A DNA stretch of 64,000 nucleotides. Origin: Prochlorococcus sp. AG-347-K19 (lineage in GTDB: Bacteria > Cyanobacteriota > Cyanobacteriia > PCC-6307 > Cyanobiaceae). The notes beneath the pieces were generated by a model. It saw only the letters and a program-made list of their open reading frames with translations. It was not told the DNA's origin and did not search any database. Numbering within the stretch: position 1 is the first letter of the stretch; every line of letters starts with the position of its first letter. The position numbers and the translations under genes were made by a program. Below, piece by piece: positions 15,448 to 35,340 of this stretch. Location of the stretch: contig QCCG01000003.1 of assembly GCA_003281335.1 (NCBI GenBank), positions 1 to 64,000 of the forward strand, read 5' to 3'.

Positions 15448-15551
15448 TTTACGGATTATTAAAAGCTTATTTTTTCAATGTTTAATTTTTTTGAGAAAAA
15501 TTAGTAAAAATTACTCTCGCGGAATTTTTTTTCAGATGTTATCGTTCACTA

Positions 15552-15603
15552 ACGTTCATCCAAGTTTATATATCTGGACGCATGAAATGGGAGTAGGGAA
15601 CGG
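15552..15603 (+). ncRNA. Glutamine-II (Downstream-peptide type) riboswitch
   Basis: The sequence has the expected three-stem layout. CGTTC (15553-15557) pairs with GAACG (15598-15602) as P1. TCC (15559-15561) pairs with GGA (15576-15578) as P2. CAT-GAA-ATG forms P3. The conserved strand GGAGTAGG closes the junction. This is the arrangement of the glnA/Downstream-peptide RNAs, which bind L-glutamine in marine cyanobacteria. It is followed 26 bases later by a small-peptide gene, the defining context of the Downstream-peptide class. It probably controls translation or transcription of that peptide by nitrogen status. Confidence 0.8.
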
Positions 15604-15627
15604 GATTCTCATTAACTGCAAAAGACC

Positions 15628-27343: not shown

Positions 27344-27464
27344 GAGGCCAAACCTCGTCAGCACACTCTACGTTTGCTGCAAGACATAGATTGATTCAAT
27401 ATAGTTGTGGGTCGATTTAATAACCCTTTCAGTAGTTGGAATTTCTGGAAGGGTTTCTTGTTTT
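27344..27464 (+). terminator. Hairpin-rich 3' region ending in a terminator
   Basis: Two short hairpins (GAGG/CCTC at 27344-27356 and CAGCA/TGCTG at 27359-27379) precede AACCCTT/AAGGGTT (27422-27455) with a T-rich tail. The last is a terminator for the 27106 gene. The hairpins before it could be part of a small RNA. Confidence 0.5.
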
Positions 27465-27876: not shown

Positions 27877-28106
27877 TTTAATAGCTATCTGCTAATTAAG
27901 GATAGCAACCATCTCTATTTATCTACACAAAGTAGGTTTGTATCCTAAAAAATCAAGAAAATTCTATAAAGTCTAGGGAATTCCATAAGAAATCCATAAA
28001 AAGGAGGTCATTTCCCCTAATATCTTCCTAAGTCAAACTAGGTAATCTCTGAAAAGCCATTCGGGGCGAAAGGATTCTAACCTGCGACCTAGTGCTTTCA
28101 AAACAC
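27877..28106. repeat. Left copy of a ~230-bp direct repeat ending in a tRNA-Pro fragment
   Basis: Aligns with 31810-32043 over its whole length with scattered substitutions and small gaps. Shared blocks include CAAGAAAATTCTATAAAGTC, AGGAGGTCATTTCCCCTAAT and CTGAAAAGCCA. Both copies begin just upstream of a minus-strand membrane-protein gene and end in the 3' part of tRNA-Pro. Confidence 0.85.
28061..28106 (-). pseudogene. tRNA-Pro 3' remnant, degenerate (attachment scar)
   Basis: Matches the 3' 46 bases of the intact tRNA-Pro at 35267-35340 with several substitutions (for example GCGAAAGG for GCGACAGG). The 5' half is missing. Behind it, CCTAGTGCT and AGCACTAGG (28125-28133) form an inverted pair. 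Interpreted as an old integration scar. Confidence 0.8.
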
Positions 28107-28292
28107 CGCACAGGGCAAGTACAGCACTAGGTTTTTAAGCTATAGCTGATTTCTTGCTGGGCTCTGCGTGATTTGTCTTGTCAAATAAAGCAATATTTGA
28201 CTGCAATTTGACCGCAAAATATTATTTGAGAAAAATTTAAATAGCATTTTATACAAGATATTGATCTATTTAAATCAATAAAAATTTGAGAG

Positions 28293-28454
28293 ATGGAATA
28301 TAGTTTTGGGGAATTACGAGCAAAAATTTTGGAATCATTTGATTACTTCGAATATCTAAATTCAATATCATTTCACCCACCTGTAATGATAATAACTACA
28401 TTAGTATTTTTTTATATAAGAAGAAAATTTTTATTAGCTGGCAAAAAACATTAG
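28293..28454 (+). CDS. 53-residue single-helix membrane protein
   Basis: ATG at 28293. A soluble acidic start (MEYSFGELRAKILESF) is followed by a hydrophobic helix (VMIITTLVFFYI) and a basic end. It is the first gene right of the leftmost tRNA scar. Function unknown. Confidence 0.5.
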   Translation: MEYSFGELRAKILESFDYFEYLNSISFHPPVMIITTLVFFYIRRKFLLAGKKH

Positions 28455-28542: not shown

Positions 28543-28911
28543 TTAACTTACCGTTGTTATTGAACTACTTAATCCATAAGTGAGAAAAATAAAACTTGCA
28601 AAAGTAACTCCAATCATTACTGTTGTGTAGAGTTTATTTAGTTTGAAATTATTATTTACTGATGAAAAGTCTGCAATAACCAAATTTTTCATAGAATATG
28701 TGTCTCTATTTTTGAAATTATTGCTGTTAACCAAACTGCCTAAAATTGGATCTGTTGAAGCTTTTATTTCTTGATTGATAACAGTATTTAAACCTTTATC
28801 TTCATTGAAGAATCTTGGAATCATATATGCATGCCATAAAGCTATTATTGCCACCCAAAAAACTACACTAACTCCTGCAAAACCAAAAAGTAAGAATCTA
28901 AAGGTTTCCAT
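28543..28911 (-). CDS. Hypothetical protein with two membrane helices
   Basis: A 122-residue protein with helices near residues 6-28 (FLLFGFAGVSVVFWVAIIAL) and 94-115 (TTVMIGVTFASFIFLTYGL), separated by a polar Asn/Lys-rich loop. No family recognised. It lies in the first cassette between tRNA-Pro scars. Confidence 0.6.
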   Translation of the reverse strand: METFRFLLFGFAGVSVVFWVAIIALWHAYMIPRFFNEDKGLNTVINQEIKASTDPILGSLVNSNNFKNRDTYSMKNLVIADFSSVNNNFKLNKLYTTVMIGVTFASFIFLTYGLSSSITTVS

Positions 28912-29131: not shown

Positions 29132-29428
29132 ATGGATTTTAGGATTTTACTTGTTATTACTCCAATAATATTCTCATGGATATTCACAATCTTTTGGTTA
29201 GGTAGGTGGGACGTATTTAGATTAACACCACTAGGATTACCAAAGAAGGGAGTAGCTCCTTTTAAAAATTATCAAGTATGGGAAGATTCAGCATTAATTC
29301 CTGATAATGGTAGACCAGCAGAAGGTTATCCAGTATTTACTGTAAGAACGGCAGCAGTCAATGCACTAGGGATTCCAACTGTTTTCTTCCTTGGAGCAAT
29401 ATTGGCAATGCAGTTTAAAACTTATTAA
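29132..29428 (+). CDS. Small membrane protein with PsbY-like N-terminus
   Basis: A 98-residue protein with a first helix [20 protein letters not shown], a polar loop with [13 protein letters not shown], and a second helix ending [16 protein letters not shown]. The start resembles PsbY-type helices (compare the real psbY at 44910) but the protein is much longer. It is 12 bases ahead of a second gene with a similar start. A photosynthetic role is a guess. Confidence 0.6.
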
Positions 29429-29440
29429 TAGGAAATTTTG

Positions 29441-29626
29441 ATGGACATTAGATTTTTAATTGTTGGAGCACCATTTTTAATCGCATTTTTTTATACCTTA
29501 TTTTGGCTTAAAAAATGGGGTGCTTTTAATTCTAAGAATAATAATTTGCCAAAAAATATTTCTCTTAAAAATGAATCAATAGAACAAAGTTATATTTTAG
29601 AGAATATCTTTTTAACAAAAAATTAA
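29441..29626 (+). CDS. Small membrane protein related to the preceding gene
   Basis: A 61-residue protein (ATG 29441) with the helix MDIRFLIVGAPFLIAFFYTL and WLKKWGAF, parallel to [13 protein letters not shown]...WLGRWDVF in the preceding protein. The two probably arose by duplication and are co-transcribed. The C-terminus is polar. Function unknown. Confidence 0.6.
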   Translation: MDIRFLIVGAPFLIAFFYTLFWLKKWGAFNSKNNNLPKNISLKNESIEQSYILENIFLTKN

Positions 29627-29661: not shown

Positions 29662-29760
29662 ATGATTCCAATAGAACAGTATTTGTTTTTTGCAGTTTCT
29701 CTTTATGCATTTTTTTATCTTTCAATAACTATAGTAAGTACATTAATAAACTTTTCCTAA
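29662..29760 (+). CDS. 32-residue hydrophobic peptide
   Basis: ATG at 29662. Almost the whole length is one helix (YLFFAVSLYAFFYLSITIV). It follows two small membrane-protein genes and may share their transcript. Confidence 0.45.
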   Translation: MIPIEQYLFFAVSLYAFFYLSITIVSTLINFS

Positions 29761-29843
29761 GCAATAATCACATAAAATATTAAACACTTATTTGTATAAA
29801 ATTAATCTTCCTGTAATTTAAAACTTATTATATAAATATAAAA

Positions 29844-29961
29844 GTAGATATTAGGGCAATCTACTAACCGCTAGCTTTGATAAAGCGGTTCGTAATGAGA
29901 ACCTCCCTTTGACCTCATTTTCTTTTTCGCAATCTTAGAAAATGAGGTTTAAATATTTTTT
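29844..29961 (+). ncRNA. Pseudoknotted RNA, copy A, with terminator
   Basis: Stem 1 is GTAGAT/ATCTAC (29844-29849 with 29859-29864) with a nine-base loop ATTAGGGCA. Stem 2 is AACCGC/GCGGTT (29866-29871 with 29885-29890). The loop bases AGGG (29853-29856) pair with CCCT (29905-29908) as a pseudoknot, and a terminator hairpin (29911-29949) with a T-run follows. Copy B at 30078 repeats the plan with compensating changes. It matches no RNA class that I know; it may be a riboswitch or a small RNA. Confidence 0.7.
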
Positions 29962-30077
29962 AATAGTCATGAATATTCAATTAAATTCTTAATTAAAACT
30001 CTAAATTATTAAATATTATTCCTTCTTATGTATATTATTTACTTTTTAAAAAAGAGTTTTTTATTTATAAAGAATAT

Positions 30078-30187
30078 GTAGATATTTGGCGAATCTGCAA
30101 CGGTATAGATTCCGTCTTTATGAACCTAGCCAACGAAAATATTCCTAGCTACGTTTTAGTTATTTTAGTAGTTAGGAATATTTTTAT
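30078..30187 (+). ncRNA. Pseudoknotted RNA, copy B, with terminator
   Basis: Stem 1 is GTAGAT/ATCTGC (30078-30083 with 30093-30098), loop ATTTGGCGA, again nine bases. Stem 2 is ACGG/CCGT. The loop bases TGGC (30087-30090) pair with GCCA (30129-30132). ATGAACCT just before this strand matches AATGAGAACCT in copy A. A terminator of 11 pairs (30137-30183) follows. It lies 40 bases before the gene at 30226 and may control it. Confidence 0.7.
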
Positions 30188-30225
30188 TTATTCCAACTTT
30201 TAAAGTAATTTTTTCTGAAAATCAA

Positions 30226-30639
30226 ATGATCAATAAATCAAGAAATGAATCTACATTAGAAAATATTTATAAGAATTTGGAATCTGGAATGCCAGAGAAT
30301 AAATCTATCAAAGAGTATGCTCTGCCTAATGCGAGACAGTGGCTTGGTGGAAGATTCGTTGCTATTTGGGTTTTACCTATTTATTTTTTAAGAAAAATTG
30401 CAAAGTTTTCTGCTTCTTCAGCCTTTGTTAAGCCATATTCTCCTTCTGTAAATGGGCCATCTTATAAGCAACCAGAAACTCTATTTACTTCTTTACGAAG
30501 TGTTTTCAGGGGTCAAGATCATTTAAGATTTTTTGATCATAGATTTATTGGTATTTGGGTATTGCCCATTGCGTTGACTGGAATTGTTTTTGAAATCCTA
30601 CTAATAGCTCCTACTAATAACACTTCACCTTTCAATTAA
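30226..30639 (+). CDS. Hypothetical membrane protein with a repeated motif
   Basis: A 137-residue protein with two similar membrane segments: GRFVAIWVLPIYFLRK (about 42-57) and HRFIGIWVLPIALTGI (about 105-120). The repeat suggests internal duplication with symmetrical helices. It is the first gene after RNA copy B. Family not recognised; possibly involved with thylakoid or envelope membranes. Confidence 0.6.
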   Translation: MINKSRNESTLENIYKNLESGMPENKSIKEYALPNARQWLGGRFVAIWVLPIYFLRKIAKFSASSAFVKPYSPSVNGPSYKQPETLFTSLRSVFRGQDHLRFFDHRFIGIWVLPIALTGIVFEILLIAPTNNTSPFN

Positions 30640-30736: not shown

Positions 30737-30778
30737 TCGGGGCGACAGGATTCGAACCTGCGACCTAGTGCTCCCAAA
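30737..30778 (-). pseudogene. tRNA-Pro 3' remnant (attachment scar)
   Basis: Forty-two bases identical to the 3' part of the intact tRNA-Pro at 35267-35340, ending inside the anticodon loop. No 5' half is present; the following bases do not fold as a tRNA. Exact identity suggests a recent integration or maintenance by recombination. Confidence 0.9.
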
Positions 30779-30987
30779 TCACTAGTTTCGAATTACTTAT
30801 AACTGCGATTTGAAGGTATAACTTATTTTGAATGCCATTTTTCCTTCTAAAACCTTATAAGACTTTCTAATACTTATTGGATTTTTCCCTAAATTTTCCC
30901 TAAAGTTGACCTAGTGCTTCATGAGGTTCTAGAAGATGCCACAAACTGATAATTAAGGAAGAAGACTTCTATATTTAGAAGTTATTT

Positions 30988-31809: not shown

Positions 31810-32043
31810 CTTAATAGCCATCTGCCAATAAGGATAGCAACCAACTCTATCTATTTATATAAGGTAGGCTTATATCCTAGAAAATTCAAGAAAATTCTAT
31901 AAAGTCTAGGGAAAAACCATAAGAAAACCCCCTAATAAAGGAGGTCATTTCCCCTAATTTTTCCCTAAGTCAAAATAGGTAATCGCTGAAAAGCCAGTCG
32001 GGGCGACAGGATTCGAACCTGCGACCTAGTGCTCCCAAAGCAC
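31810..32043. repeat. Right copy of the ~230-bp direct repeat
   Basis: Pairs with 27877-28106. This copy keeps the tRNA-Pro fragment without substitutions, while the left copy has decayed, so the left is older or less constrained. A shorter, related piece (TTTTCCCTAAATTTTCCCTAA and GACCTAGTGCTT) is seen at about 30884-30922. Confidence 0.85.
31998..32043 (-). pseudogene. tRNA-Pro 3' remnant (attachment scar)
   Basis: Forty-six bases identical to the 3' end of the intact tRNA-Pro, reaching past the anticodon into its 5' stem, then diverging. It ends the right copy of the long direct repeat. Confidence 0.9.
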
Positions 32044-32139
32044 TCGATCAGCAAAATGCGACAGCACCCATGAGAACGAAGTGAGGCTATGACTTTAGTT
32101 TGAAATATTTGTTATCAAAATGAGTCTCAAGAATTGTCT

Positions 32140-35266: not shown

Positions 35267-35340
35267 TCGGGGCGACAGGATTCGAACCTGCGACCTAGTG
35301 CTCCCAAAGCACCCGCGCTACCAAGCTGCGCCACGCCCCG
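35267..35340 (-). tRNA. trnP: tRNA-Pro(TGG)
   Basis: A 74-base cloverleaf: acceptor CGGGGCG/CGCCCCG with discriminator A, D arm GCGCAGCTTGGTAGCGC, anticodon TGG at 35304-35306 in the loop TTTGGGA, and T arm AGGTTCGAATCCT. CCA is not encoded. It is the only complete copy; four partial copies of its 3' region lie to the left. Confidence 0.97.

Follow-up and report, generated by a model that had tools for sequence, protein, structure and literature searches.

Tandem pseudoknot-headed RNAs, each resembling a small-RNA gene, accompany one small protein gene in Prochlorococcus

About half of the sampled relatives of Prochlorococcus sp. AG-347-K19 carry two or three tandem RNA copies beside one small protein gene. 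In the window analysed here, a stretch of 64,000 nucleotides of that genome (contig QCCG01000003.1, positions 1 to 64,000), two such copies, RNA A (29844-29950) and RNA B (30078-30185), lie ahead of a gene for a 137-residue protein. The reading that we favour, and to which we give roughly an even chance, is that the copies are independently transcribed, pseudoknot-headed small RNAs (sRNAs) that likely act with this adjacent basic protein. Prochlorococcus is the ocean's commonest phototroph, and its streamlined genomes retain little non-coding sequence. In so closely studied a genus it is unusual to meet a structured RNA family that is backed by covariation yet absent from the library, and the strict partnership of RNAs and gene in a movable cassette yields a clear, testable claim about what the RNAs act upon.

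Both copies give, by sequence, the fold that a preliminary description of this DNA had proposed (Table 1). Each has a 6-bp stem (P1) with a nine-base loop, a second stem (P2) and a conserved strand, and part of the P1 loop can pair with the end of that strand as a pseudoknot. The P1 loop reads ATTAGGGCA (9 nt) in A and ATTTGGCGA in B; the conserved strand is AATGAGAACCT in A and ATGAACCT in B, and the P2 loop letters AGCTTTGAT are present in almost every A copy. The pseudoknot AGGG/CCCT of A stands as first described, and that of B, given earlier as TGGC/GCCA, holds and gains one pair, becoming TTGGC/GCCAA. Two pseudoknot pairs do differ on both sides between the copies, and the A-T to G-T change reported in P1 is present as U-A in A and U-G in B. 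Topologically, the head is an H-type pseudoknot made of P1 and the loop-to-strand helix, with a hairpin and an A-rich strand as its third loop. Folded with nested pairs only, the heads are no more stable than shuffles (z -0.93 and -0.43). The full-length z values of A and B are low (-3.79 and -3.87) and, since the heads alone are unremarkable against shuffles, this is probably for the most part the contribution of the 3' hairpins. These hairpins follow the heads at once, as the earlier proposal of immediate intrinsic terminators held; their status as terminators is less secure, as a simple consensus scan calls none and the U-tract of A is weak. That scan allows terminator loops of up to 8 nt, and the loops of the A and B 3' hairpins measure 13-15 nt. 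It called neither a promoter nor a terminator at A or B, the -10 box of A included, whose promoter status is a prediction, and elsewhere it found two promoter-like sites, against 6.2 in shuffles, and no terminators.

Table 1. Features of the two RNA copies, the partner gene and their surroundings (window positions unless a locus is named)
Feature	Position	Strand	Basis or remark
RNA A predicted -10 box, TATAAATA	29831..29838	+	Kept in 43 distinct A upstream sequences at constant distance to P1
RNA A stem P1 (GTAGAT/ATCTAC)	29844-29849 / 29859-29864 (span 29844..29864)	+	Sequence, covariance-model matches, pair counts
RNA A pseudoknot 5' strand AGGG	29853-29856	+	Sits in P1 loop
RNA A hairpin P2 (AACCGC/GCGGTT)	29866-29871 / 29885-29890 (span 29866..29890)	+	Sequence, pair counts
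RNA A conserved strand AATGAGAACC and pseudoknot 3' strand CCCT (29905-29908)	29894..29908	+	Sequence, pair counts
RNA A 3' hairpin, predicted terminator, weak U-tract, loop conserved	29911..29950	+	Identity 0.985 (22 loci), folds
RNA B predicted promoter: -10 TATAAA (30066-30071), conserved TTTACTTT block upstream	30041..30077	+	40 distinct upstream sequences
RNA B stem P1 (GTAGAT/ATCTGC)	30078-30083 / 30093-30098 (span 30078..30098)	+	Sequence, covariance model, pair counts
RNA B pseudoknot 5' strand TTGGC	30086-30090	+	Sequence
RNA B hairpin P2 (ACGG/CCGT)	30100-30103 / 30112-30115 (span 30100..30115)	+	ACCG/CGGT in divergent loci
RNA B conserved strand ATGAACC and pseudoknot 3' strand GCCAA (30129-30133)	30120..30133	+	Different genomes: TTGGC/GCCAA, TCGGC/GCCGA, TGGGC/GCCCA
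RNA B 3' hairpin, predicted terminator, loop conserved	30135..30185	+	Identity 0.947 (22 loci), folds
137-aa protein gene	30226..30639	+	RNA-gene co-occurrence; pI 9.9
195-aa gene between A and B in some relatives	L130 1712-2299; L016 438-1025		Crp-family by Pfam in L130
122-aa cassette protein	28543..28911	-	Open reading frame, locus comparison
98-aa 'cytochrome b559 subunit beta, long form'	29132..29428	+	NCBIfam NF002720, E 7.5e-62
62-aa protein, resembles N-terminus of 98-aa protein	29438..29626	+	NF002717, E 2.4e-7, below curated cut-off
tRNA-Pro 3'-half fragment, left of cassette	28050..28107	-	86% to tRNA-Pro region
tRNA-Pro 3'-half fragment, right of cassette	30737..30782	-	98% to tRNA-Pro 35267-35340

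The family extends well beyond the window. A DNA search placed the A-B region in 16 of 37 same-genus genomes, its own genome counted. The covariance-model search for homologues with compensatory changes that had been suggested as a check did find them: R1, a model built only from A, had matches in 128 of the 266 genus genomes, with a best E per matched genome of at most 2.4e-7 (E-values of custom-built models are rough), and also recovered divergent tandem copies. A joint model (R2) found both A and B in the window's genome and, among the matches listed, two or more in each of the 128 R1-positive genomes. The heads recur in tandem in relatives with their order unchanged, and the duplication first described extends, in divergent loci (L184-L190 and L192), to a triplication in which three units, C-A-B, stand ahead of the gene. 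Among 80 loci fetched through the 137-aa gene, a strict pattern recognised A and B in 74 and a single copy in 6, and R2 recovered the second copy in all 6, in L109 as an A that lacks its P1. Since one genome (L109/L191) has lost the P1 of copy A yet keeps B and the gene, copy A is apparently not always needed. The unit lists used below for upstream sequences, pairing and variants hold only copies that fit fixed patterns; they omit decayed copies such as this A and some intact ones (B of L186 and of L092). One genome, G096, carries two whole cassettes (L199 and L200), far apart. In L130 and in the genome of L016/L131 a 195-aa gene is inserted between A and B, and A keeps its pseudoknot intact despite the insertion; the region before the inserted gene in L016 contains GATAATGAGAAT, which resembles a Fur box.

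Towards its edges the family fades. A set of 400 genomes of the family Cyanobiaceae (59 genera, with part of the set from the window's own genus) yielded weak matches in five genomes of other genera (E 0.0066-0.087), and none of 11 weak matches inspected by eye, covering three of these five, has all the parts. The MED4 genome has no significant match; its best, at E 0.095, covers model positions 1-51 only, in a coding-like stretch. The earlier suspicion that the layout belongs to no known riboswitch class was borne out by comparison with Rfam release 15, in which no family scores above gathering score at A or B, or in the divergent loci L184, L189 and L192. Over the whole window Rfam names only Yfr13, Glutamine-II and two tRNAs; at E 10 over 29740-30300 it offers three eukaryotic families, all below gathering scores, and at E 3 over L184, L189 and L192 an archaeal sRNA model (E 0.54, opposite strand of L192) and a snoRNA model. 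No description of the family was found in the open-licence Prochlorococcus RNA literature, judged by titles and abstract openings. Its absence from MED4, the high-light strain of two sRNA surveys, may explain the missing library entry. We also considered and rejected derivation from a phage: relatives of the 137-aa protein are encoded in none of the phage records or viral contigs, 43 viral-contig matches to a P1 pattern lack the remaining motif in the 75 bases after each (by eye), and phage DNA matches span 9% of the query at E 0.4.

Pair counts across the family indicate which helices are maintained. The counting alignment was built with R2, which contains P1 and P2 and leaves out the pseudoknot; its 77 sources were picked for diversity from more than 200 loci, and the counts cover 107 distinct rows from the best 150 of 162 matches. 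The pseudoknot is paired in 98.1% of cells, with two-sided changes in three of its four pairs, and P2 in 88.7%, with two-sided changes in all five. P1 is paired in 96.5% of cells, with a two-sided change in one of six pairs and three pairs invariant; it is maintained by sequence and not by covariation, which suggests that its letters matter too. Taking all helices together, 94.5% of cells are paired; sliding the partners by 1-3 columns lowers this to 38.2-47.3%. The covariation score reaches 0.360, compared with 0.143 for the shuffles. Two of five covariation measures do not rise above the 500 shuffles; pairs with a two-sided change number 9 against 7.9 (96/500), and further pair types 20 against 19.7 (285/500). 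Many of the double changes divide A from B, so that few events are represented. The 12 lowest-scoring matches, omitted from the counts, are all B copies, 10 of them from divergent loci; 11 were inspected by eye (L092 is the remaining one), with the outer pair of the five-pair helix mismatched in L189, L190 and L192 and a G-U pair in L185, L187, L188 and L189. Changes also occur inside unit types. Within A, AGGG/CCCT gives way in other genomes to AGAG/CTCT, with AGGG/CTCT as G-U intermediates; B has three pairings, each from different genomes (Table 1), and unit C pairs GGGA with UCCC. On this comparative evidence the shape of the pseudoknot is maintained by compensatory mutations, which is the selection on structure that the preliminary description had argued for from two copies.

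Conservation also outlines where each unit begins and ends. In a comparison of 22 loci, the A head has an identity of 0.886, the B promoter 0.885 and the B head 0.933, and the hairpins are higher still (Table 1). Identity drops to 0.633 in the A-B spacer and to 0.529 in the spacer between B and the gene, the least conserved stretch. The corresponding values for codon positions 1, 2 and 3 of the gene are 0.892, 0.924 and 0.659; the RNA units are about as conserved as the codon positions that determine its amino acids. As the units are conserved and the spacers are not, selection spans each copy from promoter through hairpin and ends there. A conserved TATA-type box lies directly before P1 in every unit type (43 A, 40 B and 8 C upstream sequences). 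In the window the end of TATAAA is 7 nt from P1 in A and 6 nt in B, C has a TATATA run just ahead of P1, and B and C each have a conserved block around -35. Within a unit type the 3' loops are conserved; they differ between types, and those of A are altered in L184-L190. A TATA-type box in front and a 3' hairpin at the end give every unit the appearance of a self-contained small-RNA gene.

The RNAs keep close company with the 137-aa gene, which is present in 134 of the 266 genus genomes, in 7 of them only as pieces. When the RNA is tabulated against the full gene, with the 7 pieces-only genomes scored as gene-negative (the piece in G177 is cut by a contig end), 126 genomes have both, two have the RNA only (G013 and G106), one has the gene only (G031) and 137 have neither; all three exceptions fall at contig ends. 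The gene lies downstream of the RNAs in 8 of 8 compared loci that were fetched through the RNA (L184, L185, L186, L189, L190, L192, L199 and L200). In G069, sequence up to window position 28381 joins directly to sequence from 30446 onward, as if one deletion took the RNAs and half of the gene together. The co-occurrence partly reflects physical linkage and block deletion. The protein has a single clearly hydrophobic stretch at about residues 107-130 and a repeated RF(V/I)xIWVLPI-like motif, and matches nothing in Pfam, NCBIfam, PADLOC or PDB sequences; its AlphaFold model (mean pLDDT 53.5) is too poor for a fold search. Public data contain 702 relatives. The named loci of the gene are Prochlorococcus or Synechococcaceae records, and two metagenome relatives (P0001 and P0002) contain an additional internal repeat of the motif-bearing module. 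Antisense control of the gene was rejected. Duplex energies computed in 9 loci for C, A and B paired with the start of the gene had z values between -2.95 (B of L016) and 0.97, each against 30 mononucleotide shuffles and with a window target stretch that includes the end of B's own hairpin, and no interaction recurred between loci.

If each copy is a small-RNA gene in its own right, extending from a promoter through the pseudoknotted 5' head to a terminator hairpin at the 3' end, transcription would start at or beside the first base of P1 and stop at that hairpin, and the transcripts would be about 110-118 nt long. A single partner would then recognise the head that the copies have in common. 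The simplest candidate is the adjacent basic protein, which we propose because its gene is found travelling with the heads throughout. Linkage, the shared heads and the protein's high pI are the grounds for proposing such binding, through which the RNAs might hold or tune the protein's activity, and the unit-specific 3' loops could provide each copy with a different second contact.

Several other readings bear on the same observations. The preliminary description had offered either a ligand-binding attenuator for the gene at 30226 or a duplicated small RNA. As tandem riboswitch-like attenuators, B, like A and C before it, would stop transcription short of the 137-aa gene as long as no ligand or protein altered the pseudoknot. 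Pseudoknot heads that adjoin terminator-like hairpins suit this idea, as does the fact that, in the loci viewed, B stands in front of the gene and shares its strand, and an exclusive link to one gene is equally expected of a cis element. In window-type A, moreover, AATGAG of the head can pair with CTCATT in the hairpin 5' arm, which is the top pairing in all ten A units listed out of 54. However, that pairing is absent from the A of L184-L190 and from C, and over 8 C, 54 A and 52 B units the head pairs with the 5' arm no more strongly than shuffled heads do (median z -0.04, -0.22 and 0.49, respectively), which gives no sign of a conserved antiterminator. A TATA-type box before every copy would bypass the copies upstream of it, the spacer between B and the gene is the unconserved stretch noted above, and A stays intact behind the inserted gene of L130 and L016/L131. 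Because of these separate boxes, the lack of head-arm pairing, the drifting spacer and an A kept intact behind a Crp-family gene, the small-RNA alternative fits better; attenuation of the 137-aa gene is not favoured and we regard it as doubtful, the evidence against it being less conclusive for B.

Separate promoter boxes and conserved, unit-specific 3' loops would equally suit trans-acting sRNAs that regulate other mRNAs by base pairing through those loops, with the 137-aa gene as a neighbour or one target. This we consider unlikely. The 14-mer complement of the A loop occurs at 47 places in 121 genomes, 46 of which are A itself, no outstanding RNA-gene complementarity recurs between loci, and RNA without the full gene is found solely at contig ends. 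A conserved target with a perfect complement to the A 3' loop was thereby discarded for 121 of the 266 genus genomes, in a search that concerns exact complements of that one loop and has weaker targets beyond its scope. The elements might instead be structured sequence with no dedicated RNA role, such as a recombination or attachment feature of a mobile cassette, and the tRNA-Pro 3' halves that bracket the cassette in the window and in some relatives would agree with this; the compensatory changes in the pseudoknot, the conserved TATA-type boxes and the many loci without tRNA-Pro repeats make it very improbable. A leader peptide was rejected as well: ATGAGAACCTCCCTTTGA forms a five-codon frame in the window's A, but neither C nor the A of L184-L190 has it, B lacks any comparable short frame, and the variation at the stop also fits hairpin pairing (by eye).

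Separate sRNAs acting with a neighbouring protein recall type III toxin-antitoxin systems (ToxIN, CptIN and TenpIN), which, according to the review PMC5086642, place tandem pseudoknotted RNAs ahead of a gene for a small protein, separated from it by a terminator-like hairpin; one promoter serves the operon, the antitoxin repeats are cut from a single sRNA, and the toxin is an endoribonuclease of the ToxN type. The present loci resemble those systems in their two or three tandem units, covariation-supported pseudoknots and small protein gene downstream; in the loci viewed, a stable 3' hairpin that the simple scan does not score, and that we call a predicted terminator, precedes the gene. They differ from those systems in having, judged by sequence, a conserved TATA-type box and a hairpin for each unit, and in a 137-aa protein with no ToxN-type match in the four collections named above. 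As we find neither a single promoter nor a ToxN-type toxin, we would not file the cassette under type III. In outline the heads also resemble the preQ1-II riboswitch (RF01054), an H-type pseudoknot with an extra hairpin in its third loop. Unlike that riboswitch, they give no match to RF01054 at E 10 (window copies) or E 3 (three divergent loci), do not stand ahead of queuosine genes and have TATA-type boxes of their own.

The surroundings suggest mobility. In the window and in some relatives the cassette is flanked on both sides by tRNA-Pro 3' halves in direct repeat. The window also has a further copy (31981-32046) and an intact tRNA-Pro(TGG) (35267-35340), and all of these share one orientation. 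With a pattern allowing up to 2 mismatches, tallied by hand from positions, 16 of the 80 loci have both flanking repeats, 14 have one of the two and 50 have none; in some loci the two repeats are almost the same in sequence (45/45 bases in L127, 97% over 104 bases in L142). An array of tRNA-Pro fragments that ends at an intact tRNA is consistent with stacked insertions of small mobile cassettes. Tycheposons are tRNA-anchored mobile elements of Prochlorococcus that carry cargo between tRNA 3' fragments. The cassette resembles them in lying between tRNA-Pro 3' fragments, but no integrase was found among the four cassette proteins scanned (a 53-aa frame lay outside the scan) and the repeats accompany only part of the loci. 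Among its other products, the 98-aa b559 beta-like protein has, in its C-terminal part, an Asn at the position of the haem-binding His of PsbF. The other cassette genes, that of the 98-aa protein included, were not found in six compared C-A-B loci, in which the RNAs and the 137-aa gene stand together, and the RNAs and this gene appear to be gained and lost as a single cassette. A bolder reading is that two or three independently transcribed pseudoknot RNAs restrain a basic, probably membrane-associated protein, as an addiction or control module on a mobile, tRNA-anchored cassette that would resemble a type III antitoxin array with separate genes and a non-nuclease partner; in this full form we think it decidedly unlikely.

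Other structured RNAs lie nearby or invite comparison. Yfr11, Yfr16 and other Yfr RNAs are related Prochlorococcus sRNAs, often located in islands, that were mapped in MED4 according to PMC2518516; unlike those, the A/B family has no significant match in MED4. One Yfr RNA, Yfr13 (RF02364), occurs at 27344-27441, immediately outside the cassette, and MED4 Yfr13 lies at 621601-621701 on the minus strand, exactly as in Table 1 of PMC2518516. Further away, a Glutamine-II riboswitch (RF01704) occupies 15550-15612, upstream of a short open frame that begins at about 15630.
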